Origin: a virus
IMG/VR virus record: IMGVR_UViG_3300044612_001240
Span: 1-29,221 of that record
Length of the DNA: 29,221 nucleotides
Reading direction: 5' to 3' (one strand)
This document shows positions 10,549 to 21,678 of the stretch, piece after piece. Below the pieces are notes generated by a model. It was given only the letters and a program-made list of their open reading frames with translations, was not told the origin of the DNA and did no database searches. Every line of letters begins with the position of its first letter. Position 1 is the first letter of the stretch. Both the position numbers and the translations under genes were made by a program.

Positions 10549-10772
10549 GCGGAGTCGCGATCGAGGCCGCAAATTTCCGACAGGTTGTTAGCGGCTTCTT
10601 TTATCGCCCACCTGCATTTGGTGCGCTCCATGTGATAAAGGGTGTTCAAAAGCAGTGCGGCCTCGAATAAGCCGTTCCAGTCCTTTTCGGTGTAACGCTG
10701 TCTGAGCCAGTGGTCATGCTTCGCCTGGTCGAAGGCGTTTTCTGGTGTTTGCTCCAGTGGGTTCATGGTCAC
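10545..10772 (-). CDS. Hypothetical protein after the lysin
   Basis: GTG 10772 overlaps the lysin stop (GTGA) and gives 75 aa; ATG 10766 is two codons in. The protein is rich in aromatic and charged residues: DQAKHDHWLRQRYTEKDW, FEAALLLNTLYHMER and KCRWAIKEAANNLSEI. Helical throughout and without a membrane segment, it is not a typical spanin. It is the last gene of the lysis unit. Function unknown. Confidence 0.65.
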   Translation of the reverse strand: MTMNPLEQTPENAFDQAKHDHWLRQRYTEKDWNGLFEAALLLNTLYHMERTKCRWAIKEAANNLSEICGLDRDSA

Positions 10773-11884
10773 ATCGGGCGGATTTTCAGGTACCAGCCGC
10801 TGTCGGGACCGTCAACGAGCCAGCGAGGAAGCCAGTTTTTTCGGGAGTATGCCACGCCGGCGCCTCCTTTGTTGCTTATATAGCCACCATTCACCAAATC
10901 GGCATCGCCATTTGGGTCGTTGTGCAGGAAGTGGGTCGGGGTGAAGCCGATCACCACGCTCCAGTGGCCTGAACCAGTGGGCTTGTTGACCGGGCCGCGA
11001 TGGAGCCAGCCCACTGGGGTGGGGTAGCCCATGCGGATTTCGGCTTCCAGGTCGGAGGCGGTGCCTTCTTGCTCGAACGTGGCGCGGAGTCCCAGCTCTT
11101 TCAAAGCGGCGATTTGGGCGTGTACGTTTGTACTGTCCCCGTATTTGCGGCGGATTAGGTTGTAGGCGTCGTCGTTGCCGATTTTTTTCCAGTACCGGGC
11201 AACCATTGCACAGCTGGAGCTGAAGCACTCGCGGTAACCTGTGCCGCTTTTGTTGTCGAGCTGGTATTCGTAGGGGACTTTGAGAATAGATTCGTTAGTT
11301 TTTACGGTTTTTTCTGCTTGGGTGTTAATTACCTTTACCAGCTTGTTTCCGTAATCGGGATTGGTAGCGTAGCCTTCTTTTTGTAGCCAGTGGGCGGCGT
11401 CTTCGATGCTGGTGGCGTTGTTGCAGCCTTTGTAGGTTTTGTAATCTTTATACCAGCGATCAACTAAATAGCAGACGGCGGTTTGGATGTCTGGGAATTG
11501 CAGGAATGAGTCGCGGATTGTGATCCACTGGCCGTTTATAAATTCTTGCGTGGTGCTGGTGGTGCCATCGCCTTTTAGGCCGAAAAAGTTGTTGCGGCCT
11601 GTTACAAGTTTGCCCCAGCTAGATTCGAGGGCCCATTGGGCGGCAACCAGTTCTGGGTATTTGGCGCCGGCAATGCGGCCGGCCATCAAAATGCCGTCCC
11701 AGTTGTTTTCGATTGGTGGTTGCTTGCCGGACTGGCTCCAGGTTTTGAACCACGGTTGGGTGCGGTTGAGCAGCTTGGGGTCGGCTTTGTTGATCGCTTC
11801 CTCCAGCTCGGCTAAAGCCGCCATTTGGTGGGGAAGCGATCGGTAGAACCGAGCTAGGTCGAGTAGACGAATGGTGCTGGTCAT
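10769..11884 (-). CDS. Two-domain endolysin: glucosaminidase + C39-like peptidase
   Basis: The 371-aa protein would digest host peptidoglycan at lysis. A helical N-terminal segment (1-60) precedes a FlgJ/glucosaminidase-type domain (about 63-190) with LVAAQWALESSWG (probable catalytic E87), NNFFGLKG and a final GYATNPDYGNKLVKVI. A second catalytic domain (about 203-371) looks like a C39-type papain-fold peptidase: ECFSSSCAMVARYW with C220, SGHWSVVIGF with H307, and HNDPNG with D323. A PYEYQLDN segment precedes C220 and could supply an oxyanion residue. There is no signal peptide, so it would need a holin. Its ATG overlaps the TGA of the frameshifted upstream product. Confidence 0.85.
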   Translation of the reverse strand: MTSTIRLLDLARFYRSLPHQMAALAELEEAINKADPKLLNRTQPWFKTWSQSGKQPPIENNWDGILMAGRIAGAKYPELVAAQWALESSWGKLVTGRNNFFGLKGDGTTSTTQEFINGQWITIRDSFLQFPDIQTAVCYLVDRWYKDYKTYKGCNNATSIEDAAHWLQKEGYATNPDYGNKLVKVINTQAEKTVKTNESILKVPYEYQLDNKSGTGYRECFSSSCAMVARYWKKIGNDDAYNLIRRKYGDSTNVHAQIAALKELGLRATFEQEGTASDLEAEIRMGYPTPVGWLHRGPVNKPTGSGHWSVVIGFTPTHFLHNDPNGDADLVNGGYISNKGGAGVAYSRKNWLPRWLVDGPDSGWYLKIRPM

Positions 11885-13508: not shown

Positions 13509-13553
13509 GCAATGCCTTGATTCAGTGTCAATGTATCAGATTTCAGGCATTGC
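13509..13553. repeat. Inverted repeat at the integrase 3' end
   Basis: GCAATGCCT (13509-13517) and AGGCATTGC (13545-13553) are perfect 9-bp inverted repeats 27 nt apart. The right arm lies in the last integrase codons and the left arm in the spacer before the next gene. It could be a transcript-end hairpin, an integrase-binding site or part of an attachment region. Sequence alone does not decide. Confidence 0.45.
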
Positions 13554-14396
13554 GTACTCCTGTGTGGTGTTGCAGTAATGCTTAAAGATGACCTCGCTGG
13601 TATTGCCAGCCCAGGCTGCTACCTGCGGCACCGGGATGCCGGCTTCGATCCAGTGGCTGATGGCCGTGTGCCTGCAGTCGTATGGCCGGTAAAGGTGTGA
13701 GATCAGGCCTGCCTGATGCAATGGCTGCAGCTTCTTGCGGAAATAGCTCTGAAATGCCAACCGATCCCACGGAAACAGGTAATCGGACTCTCGCGGCAAG
13801 GTGTCAAGGATTGTCTGGCACTTGCCGTTGAGCGGGACCCATCGCTTTTTGTTGGTCTTGGTGCTGTCTTTCAGTCCATGGGTCAGCGTCCAGTTCTGAT
13901 GCACCAGGATCTTGCTGTCTTTGATGTCCGCCCACCGCAGCGCCCGCACCTCGCCAGTTCGCATGGCGGTCTGCAGCATGAACTCGGTGTATTGCGACCA
14001 GTTGACTGTCCGGTAGGTCAGCTTTGCCTCAAGCGCTGCCAGCACCAGGCCGATCTCGTTGCGCGGAATGACGATGATCTCTTCGTCGCGCTGCGGCGCC
14101 TTGGGCATCTTGAAGCTGGCCAGCGGGTTGCGGTCCAAATAACCGACATCCTCCTGTGCCGCCCACTTGTACATCGTCTTGGTGTACATCGCCACGCGCC
14201 GCGATGACAGGACGGGCTTCTGCCCCAGCACCCAGATCATCACCTGCCGCGCTTGCTGCAGATCTTGGATGGGACAGCGGCTAAGCCACTTGGTGACTTG
14301 CCTGTAGTCAGAGGTAAGGCTGGTCGCGCAGAGCGAGATCGAGCGCTCAGCAACAAAGGCATCCCAGAGCTGGGACACCGAATAGGATGCGGTCAT
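13536..14396 (-). CDS. int: Tyrosine recombinase (integrase)
   Basis: The 286-aa protein has an N-terminal SAM-like core-binding domain (about 1-95) and a catalytic domain (about 105-286). Arg I is R146 in QTAMRTGEVRALRW. A hairpin Lys is probably K180 in STKTNKKRWVPL. R242 lies in PYDCRHTAISHWIEAG, and Tyr is Y274 in EVIFKHYCN. The usual first His of the HxxR box is replaced by Tyr (Y239) and the box II His position (GH in most) is Asn (N265, AGNTSEVI). I recall similar variants in cyanobacterial phage integrases, so it is probably active. The enzyme would integrate and excise the phage. Inverted repeats flank both ends of the gene. Confidence 0.92.
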   Translation of the reverse strand: MTASYSVSQLWDAFVAERSISLCATSLTSDYRQVTKWLSRCPIQDLQQARQVMIWVLGQKPVLSSRRVAMYTKTMYKWAAQEDVGYLDRNPLASFKMPKAPQRDEEIIVIPRNEIGLVLAALEAKLTYRTVNWSQYTEFMLQTAMRTGEVRALRWADIKDSKILVHQNWTLTHGLKDSTKTNKKRWVPLNGKCQTILDTLPRESDYLFPWDRLAFQSYFRKKLQPLHQAGLISHLYRPYDCRHTAISHWIEAGIPVPQVAAWAGNTSEVIFKHYCNTTQEYAMPEI

Positions 14397-14706: not shown

Positions 14707-14842
14707 TAGGCGTAGAAGTGGGAATGGCTACTGCGCCTTGAGGAAATAGTGACCCCCAGGTTTGAGCATCGTTGAGAGGCTTAGGGGGTATTGCTATCAG
14801 CGTACTAGGCGCAGAAGTGAGTAGGGCTACGCGGCCTCAAGG
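14707..14842. repeat. Imperfect direct repeats at the fibre 3' end
   Basis: The 37-bp segment 14707-14743 is repeated imperfectly at 14806-14842, an offset of 99 bp; TAGGCGTAGAAGTG and TAGGCGCAGAAGTG are the best-matched parts. The right copy covers the last fibre codons and stop. Between them ACCCCC (14752-14757) and GGGGGT (14784-14789) are complementary. This may be a duplication left after fibre exchange, or part of an attachment site. Confidence 0.45.
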
Positions 14843-16554
14843 GCTGCAACTTTGGCCTCAAGGGTTTCGATCCGCTCCATTGCTTCCTGCAGCGCCTTGA
14901 CTGCCTTCATGTAGAGCACCGAATAGTTGACGCTTTTGGTGACAGTGCCAAGGTCGTTGCCGTCTGCGTCGCGATCAGGAGATTCGTTGACAAGACCAGG
15001 GGAGACAAGCTCGACTTCTTGGGCAATTAGACCAATTTGGGTGTGAGTCTGACCTTTTCTAAAGTTGTAGTTACGAATCTGGAGAGCCTTGAGATCATCC
15101 CATTGAGAGTTGGCGTCAACAATGTTTTCTTTCAGTTTAATGTCAGAGAGGGAGCCGTAGCTATTGTTTGCGTTGAGTATGTTTCCACTTGTTCTGATTA
15201 CGATTGATGCTGTGCCTTTAGAAGTTGTACTTGTGGCGCTATAGTAACCAGTAAAAACGTTGCCAGTGTTGCTTGAAGCTAGTTTGCTACATACCTCAAA
15301 ACCATTGTCAAGATCATCAAATAGTGTTGAATTGCCGTTGTTTCTAATTCTCAGCCGCTCCGTCGGGCTGCTAGCTCCATCGGCGGTAGTGGAGAACACT
15401 AACCTGCCCGGCATGTCATCAGAGCCGGGTGCAGCATCAACAATCGCAGAGATTCGAGCACCTTCTACAAACTGCGATCCGTCTGATCCCTGAAATGAAA
15501 TGACTCCAATTTCGTCACCGCTTTGAACCACGGTCTGTGCGCCCACAGAGTCGGACCGATGTTTTGCTAATACAAGAAGCGGTCCCGATGTGCCTGCCGC
15601 TCCATAAGTTAGCGAGTTAACACGGCTATTTAGCTCATTACCTGCCGTTTCAATCTGAAAGACGCCAGTATAGGTTGAGTTGAAGAAGTTTGCACGCGCA
15701 CTAGACGTGCCAACTAAAAAACGACCCGATGTATCAAACCTGGCCACTTCTGATGAGCCAGTAGTCTCAAATGCAAGACTTGATTGACCGGTGGCTCCGT
15801 GATGGTGATAACACCTAATCGAGGCGCCCGAGGTTCCGGCTGCAAAGCCGTTTAATACTCCAATGTTTATTGCAGTATTCGATGGATCAGTGCTAGATGT
15901 GCCAAAGGCTGCAACATAGCCAGAAGTTCCGGCAACATTTAGAAGAGCTTGCGGCGCAGTAGTGCCAATCCCTAAACGCCCTGCGCCATCAACAGTTACA
16001 AGCGAAGAGCTGTTTCTCCTTATGTTGAATTTGTCGGCAGAAGTATCTAGCTGAACATCCCAGTTGTTTGGTCCCGTAAAGCGGACATCAAAAGTGTTCG
16101 TTGCATCGCCAAGGCGGATAAGATTACCGCTGCCAGAAACATGGAATGGCGCTCCAGGACTACTAGTCCCCAGACCTACCCGACCACTGGAGTCAACAAA
16201 CAGCCGGCCAGTGCCGCCCGTGCTGATGGCAACCTGATCAGTGCCAGGACTGTAGATGCCGGTGTCGGTGCCGCTGTCCTTGAAGTAGATGGATGGAGCG
16301 GAAGCGCTGCCGTTCTCAAAGGCGATGGTGCTCCACTCGCCGTCGAGTTGGTAAAGGGTGATCCAGGCATTATTGGCGCCGTTACGCATCTTCATGACGC
16401 CAGCCGTGGTATCGGCCCAGCGCATGTAGGCGTAGGTGGTGGTGGGCTCTGTCGTGCCGCTGTTTTGGCTGACGATTGCGGCGAGGCCGTTGTTCAGGTC
16501 AGAGCGGACGGCAGCACCAGTGCCGTTGGCGATGACGTAGTCGTGTTGTGCCAC
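14827..16554 (-). CDS. Tail fibre with C-terminal S74 chaperone domain
   Basis: The 575-aa protein starts at GTG 16554 with MAQHDYVIANGTGAAVRSDL, an N-terminus seen, from memory, in many cyanophage fibres. Repeated strand-Gly motifs (GRVGLGTSSPGAPFHV, GRLGIGTTAPQALLNV) form a trimeric beta shaft. The C-terminal 106 residues are an intramolecular chaperone of the peptidase S74 type, with S470 and K475 in SDIKLKENI as the likely self-cleaving Ser-Lys pair, GLIAQEVE and a terminal coiled coil (ERIETLEAKVAALEA). The middle (about 15100-15950) looks more AT-rich than the ends, as expected for an exchanged receptor-binding segment. It follows J as in lambda-type tails. Confidence 0.88.
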   Translation of the reverse strand: MAQHDYVIANGTGAAVRSDLNNGLAAIVSQNSGTTEPTTTYAYMRWADTTAGVMKMRNGANNAWITLYQLDGEWSTIAFENGSASAPSIYFKDSGTDTGIYSPGTDQVAISTGGTGRLFVDSSGRVGLGTSSPGAPFHVSGSGNLIRLGDATNTFDVRFTGPNNWDVQLDTSADKFNIRRNSSSLVTVDGAGRLGIGTTAPQALLNVAGTSGYVAAFGTSSTDPSNTAINIGVLNGFAAGTSGASIRCYHHHGATGQSSLAFETTGSSEVARFDTSGRFLVGTSSARANFFNSTYTGVFQIETAGNELNSRVNSLTYGAAGTSGPLLVLAKHRSDSVGAQTVVQSGDEIGVISFQGSDGSQFVEGARISAIVDAAPGSDDMPGRLVFSTTADGASSPTERLRIRNNGNSTLFDDLDNGFEVCSKLASSNTGNVFTGYYSATSTTSKGTASIVIRTSGNILNANNSYGSLSDIKLKENIVDANSQWDDLKALQIRNYNFRKGQTHTQIGLIAQEVELVSPGLVNESPDRDADGNDLGTVTKSVNYSVLYMKAVKALQEAMERIETLEAKVAALEAA

Positions 16555-16581: not shown

Positions 16582-19500
16582 TTAGACGCCCTTGCCAAAT
16601 CCCACGGCACTCCATAGGAAATTGCGGCTAACCGCAGTGCCGGCGCTGTTTCTGAAGGTCACATCGAAGCCGGTGTTGCTGACGTTGGTGACGTTGAAGT
16701 AGTCGCCAGTAGCCAGGTTTTGGGCCACAATGCCGATGCTGGGCAGGTAAGCGTTGACGCCGCCGAGACTGGCTGTTCCAGTGAAAAACGCCTTGTCAAA
16801 CGCGACCGATGCAGTCCCAGCGCCGCTGGTAACGGTACCGACAGACTGCTCGCTACGCCGCTGGAAGGTGGCGTCGTAGCCCAGTTCGTCAACAAGGATG
16901 CTCTCAGCAGGATCGGAACTTGTCAGTTCGGCTTTGAACTGGAAACCGCGACCGAGGAAAGTGCCATTAACGAACTCCTGCCAGCCGGACCAAGTTGGGG
17001 TGCCGGCAGGATTGTCTGGTGTGCGGCGCAGGTATAGCTTGGCGTTGACCGCGTCGATCACGCCGCCGTCCCAGTCGGACCAATCATCGACAAGCCCACT
17101 GCGGCTGTCGATCAGGTCGCTTGGCAGGAAGCCACGGGTGATGAAATAGCGGCGTAGATCCAGCGAAAACACCGCGCCGAGGTCAAGCGTGCTGGTAAAG
17201 GCGTACTCACCAGAAACTTCAATGTCGCCGAAAAAGTCAAGCGTAGCGATCAGATCAAAGTCGACAATGTCGTCAAATAGGCCGTCCGCATCCAGTGCCA
17301 GTGCATCAAGGTCTTCGCTGTAGAAGGTGTTGGTTTTTGCGCCTTGGAATGGCGGCACATCCTGATCTTCCCGGCGTTGTTGGATAATCAACGCCCCTAC
17401 GGCATCGGGGAAATCGACGATGACGCTGGCTTCTTGAGGGCTTTGGCGGCCGCCGTCATCCTCGAACTTGACCAAGATTTCGCCTTCGACCAGCGGCACG
17501 ATGGCTTCTGTCGAGGCGCCTGATTTGGCTGGAATTAGGTCGACACTGTTGCTCCAGGTGCCGCTTCCGTTGGTCAGGTTGGTGTGGCGAATGTGGACGC
17601 GGCCGCCGGTTTTGACGTCAAGGTCAACAGTCTGATCCCAGCGCAGGCGGGCACTGTTGGCGCTGATCGGCTCGATGGTCAGGTTCTGGACGTTGCCTGG
17701 AGGGGCGGTTTTGCCAACCAGCGTGAACTGTGCCGTTGAGGCAACGCTCAGTTTGTTGAGGCTGTTGACGCTGCGGATTTGTACGTACAACGTACCGGCA
17801 CGCAGGCCAGTAAGCCGTGTTGAGGGCGAAGTCGTGTTGATCTGGATCCAGTTGTTGTTGTCGATCCGATATTCGACGCGGAAGCCCGCGACGCGCTGTA
17901 CCGGACTGATCCAGCTCAATTCAACAGCAGTAAGGACACTCTGGCCGTCTTCGTAAAGGTGCTCGACGGCGGTAATTGATCCGGGGGCGTCGGGGATGGC
18001 CGATAGATTGCTGATGTCGCGGAACTGGAGCGACAGGTCGCTTTCGATCGCGGCGTAGATGCTGCTGTTGTACGTCAGCGCTGTAACGCTGAACGCACCA
18101 GCTTCGCCTTCGGTGACCGACAGAACACGGAACTGGTTGGATTGGATGTCGGTGGTTTGGATTAAAAAGACGCTTTCTGCGTTAGGTGCTTCGCTAAATG
18201 CGCTGCTAACAGTAAATACACTGCCGGCAATGCTGCTGATCGAGCGTGTCTCAACCAAGCCGGTTGGCAGCAACACGCTGATGGTTGGGGAGTTAGCTGT
18301 AGTTGTGGGAAGCCCGACCGTGGAATCGACTGTGATGGCTGTGGTAGTGGCGCTGCTGATGCGGCCTGAGCGACGGCTGCCTGACTTGACCGGGTCGGCA
18401 ATGTCGATCACCATGCCAGGGCGCAAAATGATGCCCGACTCCAGTGAAACAGAGAAGCTGACGGTTTCGGTCAGGTTTTGCTCGGCCAGTAGGGCCCATT
18501 TGCCGAGGCGGTGTGCTTGGCCACGGCTGTAGCAGCCCATGGCCTTAATTTCTTTGTTGATTACCCCGTACTTAGATACAGCGTCCGAGTCTTCGACGTA
18601 CTCGAACTGGACTTCCCCGAGGCTGTCGTAGGTCTGGTAAGCAACGGTGGCCGTGCTATGCCGCGCTTTTTGCGAGCTGCCCGAATAACTGAAGTTGCCG
18701 TCGATAACGTTGCTGGGTCCCAGCAGATACTGCGAGGAGGCCGGTTTGTCCTGCAGAACCACCATCGAGCCGGCGCCGTAGTAAGCGATGCCTCGGAACA
18801 GCGAGACAAACTCTTGGATGACGTTGTAAATTTCGTCGCGATTGTTCAGCAGTAGGTGACACTGAAAACGTGGTTCTTGCCCACCGAAGCCGTTGCTGAC
18901 CAGTTCGTTGCAGTATTGGCTGATGGCGTAAAAGTCAAACTTGTCGAGCGTGGCAGCAGGAATAGCCGCTCCATAGCGGGTATTGGTGATCAGGTCCCAT
19001 AAGCACCACGCGGGGTCAGCGCACCACGTGGCGGCGCCGAAGGTGCCATCCCATACGCCGGCATAAGTGACGCGGCCGAGATAGGTGGTAGTGTCGACAG
19101 TTGCGTTGGACGGCAGCTGCACCTTCGTGGCGCGGATCAGATATTTTCGCGTCGGGATGCTGTCGAACTGGCGCGAGTCAAACCGCAGGAACGACAGTGC
19201 TGAGTTTGGGTATCTCAGTTTTTCGTCGAGGATTTCTGTATAGCTGAACCAGAAGGTGCGGTTTTGGCGACGGGCACTGCTTTCATCGGCAGACACACGC
19301 ACCATGCGAATGTCGATAGGGAAACTACCGCTAAATGTCAGCAGATAATCGCGCTGATAGCTGTTGGTGGTTTTGCCGCTGATTGTGTCATCTACAACCG
19401 TGGTGTAACCGCCGCCGTTGTATTGGACTTGCAGCTGGATGCGGACACTGTGGCCAATAATGTCACCATCGTCTTCAATAATCTGCAACGCTGGCAGTTG

Positions 19501-20337
19501 GATAGTCACCCGCACGCGATCCACGTCGGTGTCGGTGATCGTGCGAACGACGGGCGTTGCGTTTGTTACCTCAACATTGACGGTGTTCTCAGACTCTGTG
19601 CCGCCGGTAGCGGCGATGTAGGTCTGGGCTTGCGTGCCAGTGCGGAAGTCAGTGGTATAGCCGCTGAAGTTGCTGCTGCCACCTGGCCCAACGATGGGCG
19701 TACCATCTAAATAGACGCTCTTCAAGCCGTCGTCGAGGCCTTGGATCTCGCCTTCGCACAGCAGATCGAGGACGCTGGCGTACTGGACTGACTGCAGCGA
19801 ATCATCAGCTTCAGTTGGAACGCTTTGTGATCCACCGCCGCCTTTGCCACCACCGCCACCCCCACCTGCACCTGCGATCGTCGCACCGAGGCCTGCGTTA
19901 TGGACACGGATGTTGTCGGCAATAAAGGTGTGCTGGCCTTCGACCGTCAGGTTGTAAACAGTGCCGCGCTCCAGTTCGTCTTTGCGTAGGATCGGACGCA
20001 GGTGGCCGAGGCCGTCGACCAGACAGTCATCTGCGCCAAGCGTGTCGATGCAGACGAAGGCGTTGAACTGGTTCAGCACCCAGTGGTTGGGTGTCGCATC
20101 TAAGTGCGTGCCGCCCCACAGGTGGTAGCGCTTGATTGGCTGGTCTTCGTGGATGTGGACCTTGAGGATCTTCGCTGGGTGAATCTGGCCACGGTCGTCA
20201 AAACTCAGGACGATTTCGCCGGGCTCCAGTGAGTCGATCCGGCGTTGGCCGCCTGGGACGCTGATAAGCGTGTAGTTCGGAAAACAGCCGCTACCACCGC
20301 CGCCACCACCTGCACCTTGGATTACGGGGTAAGTCAT
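16582..20337 (-). CDS. Tail-tip / host-specificity protein J-like, with intein-like insertion
   Basis: The 1251-aa protein closes the tail tip and positions the fibres. After 17 residues (MTYPVIQGAGGGGGGSG) comes a 130-residue intein-like (Hint) domain, then a second Gly-rich stretch (GAGGGGGGGKGGGGS). The J-type core begins about residue 170 (DSLQSVQYASVLDLLCEGEIQG), includes several beta domains, and carries fibronectin-III-like repeats from about residue 790 (LSAIPDAPGSITAVE, APPGNVQNLTIEPI). The order of genes before it (M, L, K, I) and the conserved LLCEGEI start make the lambda J assignment strong. It overlaps the I-like gene in ATGA fashion. Confidence 0.85.
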   Translation of the reverse strand: MTYPVIQGAGGGGGGSGCFPNYTLISVPGGQRRIDSLEPGEIVLSFDDRGQIHPAKILKVHIHEDQPIKRYHLWGGTHLDATPNHWVLNQFNAFVCIDTLGADDCLVDGLGHLRPILRKDELERGTVYNLTVEGQHTFIADNIRVHNAGLGATIAGAGGGGGGGKGGGGSQSVPTEADDSLQSVQYASVLDLLCEGEIQGLDDGLKSVYLDGTPIVGPGGSSNFSGYTTDFRTGTQAQTYIAATGGTESENTVNVEVTNATPVVRTITDTDVDRVRVTIQLPALQIIEDDGDIIGHSVRIQLQVQYNGGGYTTVVDDTISGKTTNSYQRDYLLTFSGSFPIDIRMVRVSADESSARRQNRTFWFSYTEILDEKLRYPNSALSFLRFDSRQFDSIPTRKYLIRATKVQLPSNATVDTTTYLGRVTYAGVWDGTFGAATWCADPAWCLWDLITNTRYGAAIPAATLDKFDFYAISQYCNELVSNGFGGQEPRFQCHLLLNNRDEIYNVIQEFVSLFRGIAYYGAGSMVVLQDKPASSQYLLGPSNVIDGNFSYSGSSQKARHSTATVAYQTYDSLGEVQFEYVEDSDAVSKYGVINKEIKAMGCYSRGQAHRLGKWALLAEQNLTETVSFSVSLESGIILRPGMVIDIADPVKSGSRRSGRISSATTTAITVDSTVGLPTTTANSPTISVLLPTGLVETRSISSIAGSVFTVSSAFSEAPNAESVFLIQTTDIQSNQFRVLSVTEGEAGAFSVTALTYNSSIYAAIESDLSLQFRDISNLSAIPDAPGSITAVEHLYEDGQSVLTAVELSWISPVQRVAGFRVEYRIDNNNWIQINTTSPSTRLTGLRAGTLYVQIRSVNSLNKLSVASTAQFTLVGKTAPPGNVQNLTIEPISANSARLRWDQTVDLDVKTGGRVHIRHTNLTNGSGTWSNSVDLIPAKSGASTEAIVPLVEGEILVKFEDDGGRQSPQEASVIVDFPDAVGALIIQQRREDQDVPPFQGAKTNTFYSEDLDALALDADGLFDDIVDFDLIATLDFFGDIEVSGEYAFTSTLDLGAVFSLDLRRYFITRGFLPSDLIDSRSGLVDDWSDWDGGVIDAVNAKLYLRRTPDNPAGTPTWSGWQEFVNGTFLGRGFQFKAELTSSDPAESILVDELGYDATFQRRSEQSVGTVTSGAGTASVAFDKAFFTGTASLGGVNAYLPSIGIVAQNLATGDYFNVTNVSNTGFDVTFRNSAGTAVSRNFLWSAVGFGKGV
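19897..20286 (-). other. Intein-like (Hint, BIL-A-type) domain inside J
   Basis: Residues 18-147 of the J-like protein. C18 opens the domain (CFPNYTLISVPGGQ, then IDSLEPGEIVLSFD), matching splicing block A. ATPNHWVL matches block B with its TxxH. YNLTVEGQHTFIADN and IRVHN match blocks F and G. No homing endonuclease is inserted, so it is a mini-domain. The residue after His-Asn is Ala instead of Cys, Ser or Thr, as in type A bacterial intein-like domains. Cleavage, or slow splicing by another route, is more likely than canonical splicing. Confidence 0.8.
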
Positions 20338-20978
20338 ACGGTTTGATTAACGTCGAGGCCGCTGCTGATAACGGCCGAGCCAACAAAAAGACGCCCGTAG
20401 GCCACCGGAACAGGTAGTCCCTGTTTCGACGTATTCACAATTCCCGAAAAAGTGAAGCTCTCCAGGCGGGCTGCCTCGCGGCCACTGGTTAGAGCGCCCA
20501 TATTTTGCTGCGGTGAGATCATCTGCGCGACGCCGCCAAGAAGCAGACTGGCGCCGAGGCCGCCAAGAGCGACTGAGACTGCACTTGCTGTAGCGCCTGA
20601 GATAAAGCCAGCCCCAAGACCAAGGAAACCAGCACCGGCGGGACCGGCAACAATCGCCAATGCGATCAGACCAATACCAGCCAGCACCTGCCCGAAGCCT
20701 TGACCGGCGCCGCAGATCACCGGCGTAATGCTAAAGACCTCGCGTTCGGACCAAGGCAGTACCAGTGCTTCGGGTGATTCTTGCGTGATCGCGTCGCGGC
20801 CGACCGTGACGCGGAAGCCGGTGCCTTCGGCTTCGCGGTCCATCAGCCACCTGTCAAGGCCTGGGAAATTGACGCACAACGCTTTCAGCGCTTGGGCTGG
20901 TGTATCAACCTCAAACTCGAACCGGCATCGTCCGCCAAGGAGCTTACGGAGGGTGCCGTAGACCTTAACGACTTTCAT
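20334..20978 (-). CDS. Tail assembly protein I-like
   Basis: The 214-aa product has a ubiquitin-like N-terminal domain (about 1-85: KVVKVYGTLRKLLGGRCRFE then SITPVICGA) and a long Gly/Ala-rich hydrophobic region (about 95-165) with two possible membrane-like helices. This is the lambda gpI architecture, a tail-tip assembly factor acting with K. It lies between K and J as in lambda and overlaps both neighbours. Confidence 0.8.
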   Translation of the reverse strand: MKVVKVYGTLRKLLGGRCRFEFEVDTPAQALKALCVNFPGLDRWLMDREAEGTGFRVTVGRDAITQESPEALVLPWSEREVFSITPVICGAGQGFGQVLAGIGLIALAIVAGPAGAGFLGLGAGFISGATASAVSVALGGLGASLLLGGVAQMISPQQNMGALTSGREAARLESFTFSGIVNTSKQGLPVPVAYGRLFVGSAVISSGLDVNQTV

Positions 20979-21678
20979 GCCGCAGGACCATGGCAGTGCT
21001 CTTTACATAGTAGCCGCCGTACACGTCTCGACTAGATAGCCGCCCCTGCACATGATGCAAAATCTGCTGGTCGCCAAGGTAAATGGCGCCGTGGTTGGGC
21101 AGGTCAGCGCCAAGCTGCATCAGGATCGCGTCGCCGTACTGCAGCTCTTCAAACGGCACGCGCCGAAAACCTTGGGACTTGTACCCATCGACGTACAAGT
21201 TCTCGCCGCGTTCCCAAAAGCGGTCCCGTCGTGGAAAATCAGCTAGTTCCAGTCCGAACTCGCGCTTGTACCAGTCGCGGCACAAGCTGTAGCAATCCAC
21301 CACGCCAAAGACAAACTCACGCCCGACGTAAGGCAGCTCGAAGTCCTTTGGCTCGCAACCGCCCCACTGCTCGGTCTTTGGGTTGACGATGATCCAAGGC
21401 AGGCCGGTGGCGTTGCAGCTCAGTTGATCGGCGGCAGATGCGACCGGGCGGCTTGTTGGGTGGCTGTGTACCACGGCAACGATTTCGCCCAAATCTTCGG
21501 CGGCTGCGTAGTCGGCAGGATCCAGTACGAAGTGCTCGTCAGGTGTCTCGGCGATGTTTGCGCAGGCATAAAAACGTTTGCGGCCTTTGACCACATGGAT
21601 CAAGCCACACATCTCTTTTGGATCGCACGCCTGCGCGTAGGCGAGGATTTCGGTCTGTAGCGTCGTGCCTAGTTTCAT
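20965..21678 (-). CDS. Tail protein K-like: JAMM + NlpC/P60 peptidase
   Basis: The 237-aa product fuses two peptidase folds. The N-terminal JAMM/MPN domain (1-110) has E22 in KEMCGL, then VVHSHPTSRPVASAADQ with H71, H73 and D84 as the zinc ligands. The C-terminal NlpC/P60 domain (about 118-237) has C129 in GVVDCYSLCRDW, H196 in NHGAIYL and H208 or H209. This is the lambda gpK arrangement, needed for tail-tip assembly and possibly for cell-wall penetration. Both active sites look complete. It overlaps L by 4 nt. Confidence 0.85.
   Translation of the reverse strand: MKLGTTLQTEILAYAQACDPKEMCGLIHVVKGRKRFYACANIAETPDEHFVLDPADYAAAEDLGEIVAVVHSHPTSRPVASAADQLSCNATGLPWIIVNPKTEQWGGCEPKDFELPYVGREFVFGVVDCYSLCRDWYKREFGLELADFPRRDRFWERGENLYVDGYKSQGFRRVPFEELQYGDAILMQLGADLPNHGAIYLGDQQILHHVQGRLSSRDVYGGYYVKSTAMVLRHESR

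Follow-up and report, generated by a model that had tools for sequence, protein, structure and literature searches.

An A-type-BIL-like Hint domain in the glycine-rich leader of a phage tail-tip protein

Introduction

A phage tail-tip protein J was found to carry, close to its N-terminus, a Hint domain that ends in His-Asn and is followed by Ala. The locus thus raises the question of whether such a domain cuts itself out of J, joins the parts on its two sides or stays in the virion, and of what it does for a protein that many related phages make without it. A preliminary description of the locus held that the Ala at +1 blocks normal splicing and that cleavage or alternative splicing during tail assembly may be a maturation switch. 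The locus, the fold of the domain, its catalytic residues in relatives and the J alleles with and without it (filled and empty) were analysed computationally.

Results

Organization of the locus

The window (the whole stretch of DNA analysed, a virus record of 29,221 bases) carries the minus-strand tail genes M (PF05939), L (PF05100), K (JAB + NlpC/P60), I (phrog_32) and J. J is matched by phrog_31 over residues 162-998 (E=2e-243) and by the solved lambda J 8iyk (E=1e-110), and FNIII-A_GpJ and Phage-tail_3 exceed their cut-offs on it; the NCBIfam lambda J model NF049904 gives 425.7 bits, below its own cut-off of 1950. With J domains beside the L, K and I genes, the protein is a lambda-type tail-tip J. 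Since phrog_31 and lambda J both place the beginning of J proper at about residue 162, the Hint domain and two Gly tracts precede the first structural domain of J. The sequences flanking the Hint domain are GAGGGGGGSG on one side and AGLGATIAGAGGGGGGGKGGGG on the other. The features of the locus are collected in Table 1.

Table 1. Coordinates of J, of the parts of its leader and of the adjoining gene in the window.
Feature	Position	Strand	Remarks
J-like tail-tip (central fibre) protein	16582..20337	(-)	1251 aa; J proper from about residue 162
Native leader (N-extein), residues 1-17, MTYPVIQGAGGGGGGSG	20287..20337	(-)	leader motif in 134/136 Hint-bearing loci
Hint domain, residues 18-147 (130 residues)	19897..20286	(-)	blocks A, B, F, G
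Block A Cys18 (Hint Cys1), expected thioester nucleophile	20284..20286	(-)	invariant in relatives
Block B T82-P-N-H85	20083..20094	(-)	conserved in relatives
Block F His136	19930..19932	(-)	conserved in relatives
Block G His146-Asn147, expected Asn cyclisation site	19897..19902	(-)	Asn147 codon 19897-19899; preceded by V
Residues 148-158, AGLGATIAGAG	19864..19896	(-)	conserved +1 AGL(G) and second copy of leader motif
Gly tract with Lys165 (19843-19845), ahead of J proper	19831..19866	(-)	seen in sequence
Tail assembly protein I	20334..20978	(-)	directly upstream, overlaps J start; phrog_32 E=2e-46

The gpK gene (20965-21678, minus strand), encoding JAB and NlpC/P60 domains, adjoins the gpI gene. 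On the other side, the gene next to J (14827-16554, minus strand) encodes a tail fibre whose chaperone domain, Peptidase_S74, is of a self-cleaving kind; J and this fibre would be two possibly self-processing neighbours. A tyrosine-integrase-like gene (Phage_integrase; 13536-14396, minus strand) sits past the tail fibre gene, and an endolysin-like gene (10769-11884, minus strand) encodes a protein that joins glucosaminidase and C39-like peptidase domains.

Residues 18-147 of J form a Hint domain

On the window's own sequence, the Pfam families Hint_2, Intein_splicing and Hint all remained under cut-off, and the NCBIfam model TIGR01443 (intein_Cterm) scored above it (18.8 against 15.6 bits). 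When 30 diverse members of the family were searched at E up to 0.01, Intein_splicing and Hint each matched all 30, Hint_2 matched 28 and PT-HINT 27. A profile of six family members matched solved inteins and a BIL (6qaz, E=1.1e-7; 2lwy, E=4.6e-7). In the AlphaFold2 model the mean pLDDT was at least 92 in each 10-residue block from residue 21 to 140; residues 1-15 and 149-176 had pLDDT below 50 and are predicted to be disordered. Comparison of the model with inteins, BILs and hedgehog gave Z values of 19-21 (NpuDnaB intein 20.8, BUBL1 BIL2 20.0, Clostridium BIL 19.8, each over at least 132 residues), and the top Foldseek match was BUBL1 BIL2 (6y75, E=1.3e-10). Profiles and predicted model together confirm residues 18-147 of J as a real Hint domain, and chance is ruled out. 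The preliminary description had delimited the domain exactly, from the Cys18 codon to the Asn147 codon, and its picture of a mini-Hint with blocks A, B, F and G intact between Gly-rich spacers agrees with the modelled fold.

Catalytic residues are kept in all relatives

Three scans (J-seeded, genome-contig and Hint-seeded) yielded 136 Hint loci, of which 132 are complete at the start and represent 83 distinct sequences; the latter is the sounder count, since the loci include some contigs twice, with two locus ids. The domain thus recurs in many phages; the preliminary description had placed such domains in marine phage tail proteins. These first samples favour Hint carriers: the J-seeded scan used one Hint peptide among its six patterns, and the Hint-seeded scan used two Hint patterns, one of them spanning block B. 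In the 62 loci new to the genome and Hint-seeded scans, the Hint domain is always in the J leader.

All 83 distinct complete copies keep Cys1, T65-P-N-H68, H119 and H129-N130 (Hint numbering), the invariance of TPNH being partly by construction because one Hint-seeded pattern covers block B. Scans seeded with J cores alone are free of this bias. In these, every one of the 69 complete copies starts with Cys and retains T65, H68, H119, H129 and N130, and all 75 copies end in HN-AGLG (6 are cut at the start by contig ends). Loss of the catalytic Cys or His in relatives, which had been named beforehand as an outcome that would speak against the earlier proposal, was thus seen in 0/83 distinct and 0/69 J-seeded complete copies. 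Ala, Gly and Leu follow the Asn in 132/132 loci, with Gly at +4 in 131/132. The absence of a +1 nucleophile, recorded earlier for this one locus, is therefore general among the relatives compared: Ala occupies +1 in 132/132 loci and 75/75 J-seeded copies, and Cys, Ser or Thr in none of either set.

The domain is exactly 130 residues long in all 93 distinct DNA copies, in which synonymous codons are in use at the conserved sites (two each for Cys, His and Asn, and all four for Ala). The dN/dS of the Hint domain has a median of 0.10 and a maximum of 0.22 (159 of 600 drawn pairs passing the identity filter). These comparisons are evidence that the catalytic residues are under selection. As the residues of the N-side (Cys1, T-x-x-H) and of the C-side (H119, H129, N130) are kept alike, both reactions seem to be selected; if one cut alone mattered, the residues of the other reaction would be expected to drift.

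Beyond the catalytic set, the 83 distinct sequences also share without exception H44, H46, W57-G-G, N72-Q73 and C88. The two His and one Cys at positions 44, 46 and 88 (window residues 61, 63 and 105; 83/83) could possibly provide metal or redox control of autoprocessing.

Filled and empty alleles of J

The frequency of the domain was estimated from relatives found with J cores alone as seeds. Among the best 80 of 391 loci for the window's core, 38 have the Hint domain, 37 are without it, 4 are cut and 1 has no J start; among the best 80 of 434 loci for a second J lineage (L104), the numbers are 37 with, 39 without and 4 cut. The domain is thus present in 75 of 151 classifiable loci out of these best 160 (8 are cut before the leader and 1 has no J start). 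Farther J families are mostly empty, with a Hint domain in 5/153 among the matches listed, 3 of which are cut at the 5' end.

For the J-core tree, the 151 rows were reduced to 116 cores, 63 of them empty and 53 filled. On this FastTree tree the presence of the domain changes at least 29 times, 21 of the changes being forced by branches with support of at least 95; on a previous tree, built with 186 cores taken from the biased samples, 9 changes sufficed. Shuffled labels average 38.5 changes against the 29, so Hint status is still somewhat clustered. The count itself may be inflated, since FastTree alone was used, recombination affects J genes, and nearly identical rows of unlike status were left in. 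As about half of the close J relatives are without the domain and its status has changed so often, the Hint domain is dispensable. Hint identity tracks J-core identity poorly (Spearman 0.34, against 0.89 for core and gpI; 45 loci), but in AU tests for Hint transfer apart from J two groupings were not rejected (p 0.886 and 0.87).

In four filled/empty pairs, the aligned blocks flanking the Hint domain share 17-22 nt of the empty allele, which means that this stretch is present twice, around the domain, in the filled allele. The motif I-x-G-(A/S)-G occurs once in empty leaders (M..IxGAGG..GGKGGGG) and twice in filled leaders (M..IxGAGG-Hint-AGLG..IxGAGG..GGKGGGG), the second copy being found in 136/136 Hint-bearing loci. 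In one clade the native leader of filled alleles is of the same type as in Hint-less relatives (MSRIVGAGG). In another, the empty allele starts with MIEDLLLVQGAGG and the filled allele with MTQLQGSGG; the differing starts suggest that allele exchange by recombination, and not deletion alone, is likely. At its (A/S) position, the first motif has Ser in 6/22 scored distinct filled leaders (1 unscored) against 0/36 empty leaders (3 unscored), with Fisher p=0.002 on rows that are not independent and are uncorrected for kinship; in the second motif, Ser is found in 2/13 (p=0.07). The looser first motif is a weak sign, at the sequence level, toward a C-terminal cleavage that would leave an empty-like leader.

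Even between phages with K and J genes of about 90% identity, the hydrophobic, Gly-rich middle part of gpI is hypervariable; its bin drops to 53-57% nucleotide identity in the pairs L317/L319, L348/L352 and L368/L371. In lambda gpI, the corresponding middle consists of predicted membrane helices and a plug. This segment is more than 85% identical in 11% of 226 mixed, 24% of 148 empty and 34% of 115 filled pairs. The tie of the segment to Hint status is weak, and physical linkage suffices for it.

Distribution

Two tblastn searches with the Hint domain and its flanks against 50,697 phage records gave no named isolate with a Hint domain in J. The matches comprised 7 and 17 records, each below 60% identity and annotated as helicase, P-loop NTPase, terminase or hypothetical, with one unannotated. 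Full-length J matched 1542 records, and none of the 60 matches listed starts before residue 170; the top phage records for whole J, among the matches listed, are Prochlorococcus siphophages, matching from residue 175. A single locus (L083), in a cyanobacterial MAG, came from the genome-contig scan. Among 299 genomes drawn from the order of that MAG, itself one of them, there was 1 match, so a common prophage of this order is not indicated. When 14 records, possibly fragments, were searched for a second Hint at E up to 0.1, the 12 viral records and the MAG one had a single match each and the record L059 had none. A Hint-like domain with a His-Asn end and Ala as the next residue also occurs in a 517-aa hypothetical protein of Ruminococcus phage NatCom_3870 (L146, 2236-3789); in this phage setting, unrelated to J, the +1 nucleophile is missing as well.

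No description of a Hint domain in J, and hence no earlier report of one in this host protein, was found in a survey of the open PMC literature. The phage inteins named in the surveyed papers lie in terminase, ribonucleotide reductase, dCTP deaminase and minor head protein.

Discussion

Proposed mechanism and alternatives

We consider it somewhat more probable than otherwise that the Hint domain is a self-excising, A-type-BIL-like and dispensable guest in the flexible Gly-rich leader of J. Cys18 would take the leader onto its thiol as a thioester with Gly17, and Asn147 would cyclise and cut the Asn-Ala bond, upon which the Hint domain would depart. J would then begin at Ala148 (AGLG..IAGAGG..GGKGGGG), near the leader of Hint-less relatives; alternatively, the free amine of Ala148 could capture the thioester to give a spliced J by aminolysis. 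Either way the N-terminus of J would be changed, as the preliminary description had said. If the domain is active, cleavage is by our estimate to be expected somewhat oftener than splicing. Type A BILs are described (PMC4031507, PMC5874633) as having no +1 nucleophile, forming the N-terminal thioester and cutting at Asn; they sometimes join the parts via a free amine, and cleavage products dominate. Removal of the domain, of about 15 kDa, would be needed for J to assemble, or would improve its assembly, as a folded domain on the leader would probably hinder assembly. With assembly needing or favouring removal of the domain, inactive copies would be lost and active copies and empty alleles would persist. 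That no copy seen has lost its cutting residues, with about half of the relatives lacking the domain, suggests self-removal as the tail protein is made, and the absence of decayed copies despite many presence changes fits a guest that is tolerated only if it cuts.

Two observations sit less easily with a mere guest. The invariant AGL after the Asn is left unexplained by tolerance, and a native leader that is discarded would be useless, yet its motif is conserved. The half-half frequency may also point to a benefit. In an unlikely variant, the domain would be a leader-exchange device: self-cleavage would swap the native leader for the carried AGLG..IAGAGG, or pass the native leader to a Lys amine to give a branched J, and filled and empty morphs, recombined between phages, would be held near half-half by balancing selection as a functional tail-tip dimorphism. 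Conservation of the native leader, and its sharing by filled and Hint-less members of the MSRIVGAGG clade, would also follow from true splicing, in which leader and J are joined by aminolysis or some other route and J keeps both motifs. The residues for both half-reactions are all kept, as splicing would need, but no copy has Cys, Ser or Thr at +1, cleavage is reported to predominate in type A BILs (PMC4031507), and the first motif is less strict than its counterpart in empty leaders (on rows that are not independent), so we hold splicing to be unlikely. The earlier claim that normal splicing is blocked stands for the class 1 route; it does not extend to the free-amine route reported there for type A BILs (PMC4031507).

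The thioester could also be attacked by a Lys amine, of Lys165 in J or of another protein, leaving an isopeptide-linked leader. This would account for the retention of both leader motifs, a Lys lies 14-24 residues past the Asn in 136/136 Hint-bearing loci, and BIL2 (6y75), the top Foldseek match, is reported to make a Lys isopeptide bond (PMC8616854). Against this, 36 of 51 hand-listed Hint-less leaders from the same J clades also hold a Lys, which leaves the Gly-tract Lys unsupported as a Hint-specific acceptor, and by sequence the Hint family is equally near ordinary inteins and BIL2; leader transfer is thus very improbable. Some inteins splice in dependence on zinc or redox state. Processing of the Hint domain might likewise be delayed until a tail-assembly or host-entry signal and then free the J leader, which is the maturation switch suggested earlier. 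The position in a tail-tip protein with the gpI and gpK genes adjoining, the invariant non-catalytic His and Cys residues and the zinc activation reported for BUBL1 BIL2 (PMC8616854) are in keeping with a switch. However, a timed switch should matter to Hint-less relatives too, and no sign of this was seen: half of the close relatives manage without the domain, its status has changed at least 29 times, and neither a signal or regulator nor a link to assembly timing was seen. The switch therefore finds no backing here and we regard it as improbable. Uncut retention as a tail-tip decoration, for which the flexible flanks (pLDDT below 50) would let the domain hang outside, is of similarly low probability, as conserved catalytic residues on both sides would need another reason.

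If the proposed guest is active, intein-type autoprocessing would take place on the protein by which lambda-type phages find their host, and natural empty and filled alleles on near-identical backgrounds would make the role of BILs for their hosts directly testable. A Hint domain that cuts after a Gly run at a fixed Asn/Ala-Gly-Leu junction without a +1 nucleophile might also be put to use as a tag for cleavage or ligation.

Comparison with known systems

By its features the Hint domain is of the A-type BIL kind, the assignment resting on sequence and model and its PDB matches in the six-member profile search mixing BILs and inteins. The Hint fold is combined with Cys1, T-x-x-H, a C-terminal His-Asn and a +1 Ala, and the definition of A-type BILs in PMC4031507 and PMC9185962 does without a +1 nucleophile. 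The length of 130 aa lies within the range of 130-155 aa given there (PMC9185962). The site is a variable region, the Gly-rich J leader varying in length and sequence, in line with the location of BIL domains in variable regions described in PMC5874633. A B-type BIL (block G without His-Asn) is ruled out, as His-Asn is present in all copies; a class 1 intein is ruled out by the criterion of a +1 Cys, Ser or Thr (Ala in 132/132), and a class 3 intein (no Cys or Ser at position 1) is rejected with Cys1 in 83/83.

Several solved or described systems resemble the J Hint domain in part. Class 1 mini-inteins (gp41-1, NpuDnaB) share the fold (Z 19-21) and blocks A, B, F and G, and gp41-1 is the best PDB sequence match of the family; unlike them, the J domain lacks a +1 Cys, Ser or Thr and sits in a Gly-rich leader. 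Pretoxin HINT (PF07591) matches 27/30 Hint members at E up to 0.01. It is defined by fusion to a toxin domain, whereas the J domain is linked to a tail-tip protein in which Pfam matches at E up to 0.01 are tail-tip domains only, with no toxin domain. The J proteins of Prochlorococcus siphophages MED4-117 and MED4-184 are about 37% identical to J proper from residue 175 on; unlike the window J, that of MED4-117 has a short leader without a Hint domain.

Tetrahymena BUBL1 BIL2 (PDB 6y75, 6tmm), the best Foldseek match (Z 20.0), is 19% identical to the J domain and is flanked by ubiquitin-like domains. An ubiquitin-like N-terminus of the gpI family and a JAB/ubiquitin-like link of gpK and gpI are described in PMC1779556; that this theme is common to gpI/gpK and the BIL2 flanks is perhaps a coincidence. 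The Clostridium thermocellum BIL (PDB 2lwy) aligns with an rmsd of 1.6 over 132 residues (Z 19.8; profile E=4.6e-7). With A-type BILs as a group, the J domain shares Cys1, the His-Asn end, the lack of a +1 nucleophile and the variable-region site; it differs from them in its host, a phage tail-tip protein, in the fixed Ala-Gly-Leu at +1 to +3, in its length of exactly 130 residues and in being polymorphic for presence and absence at one site.
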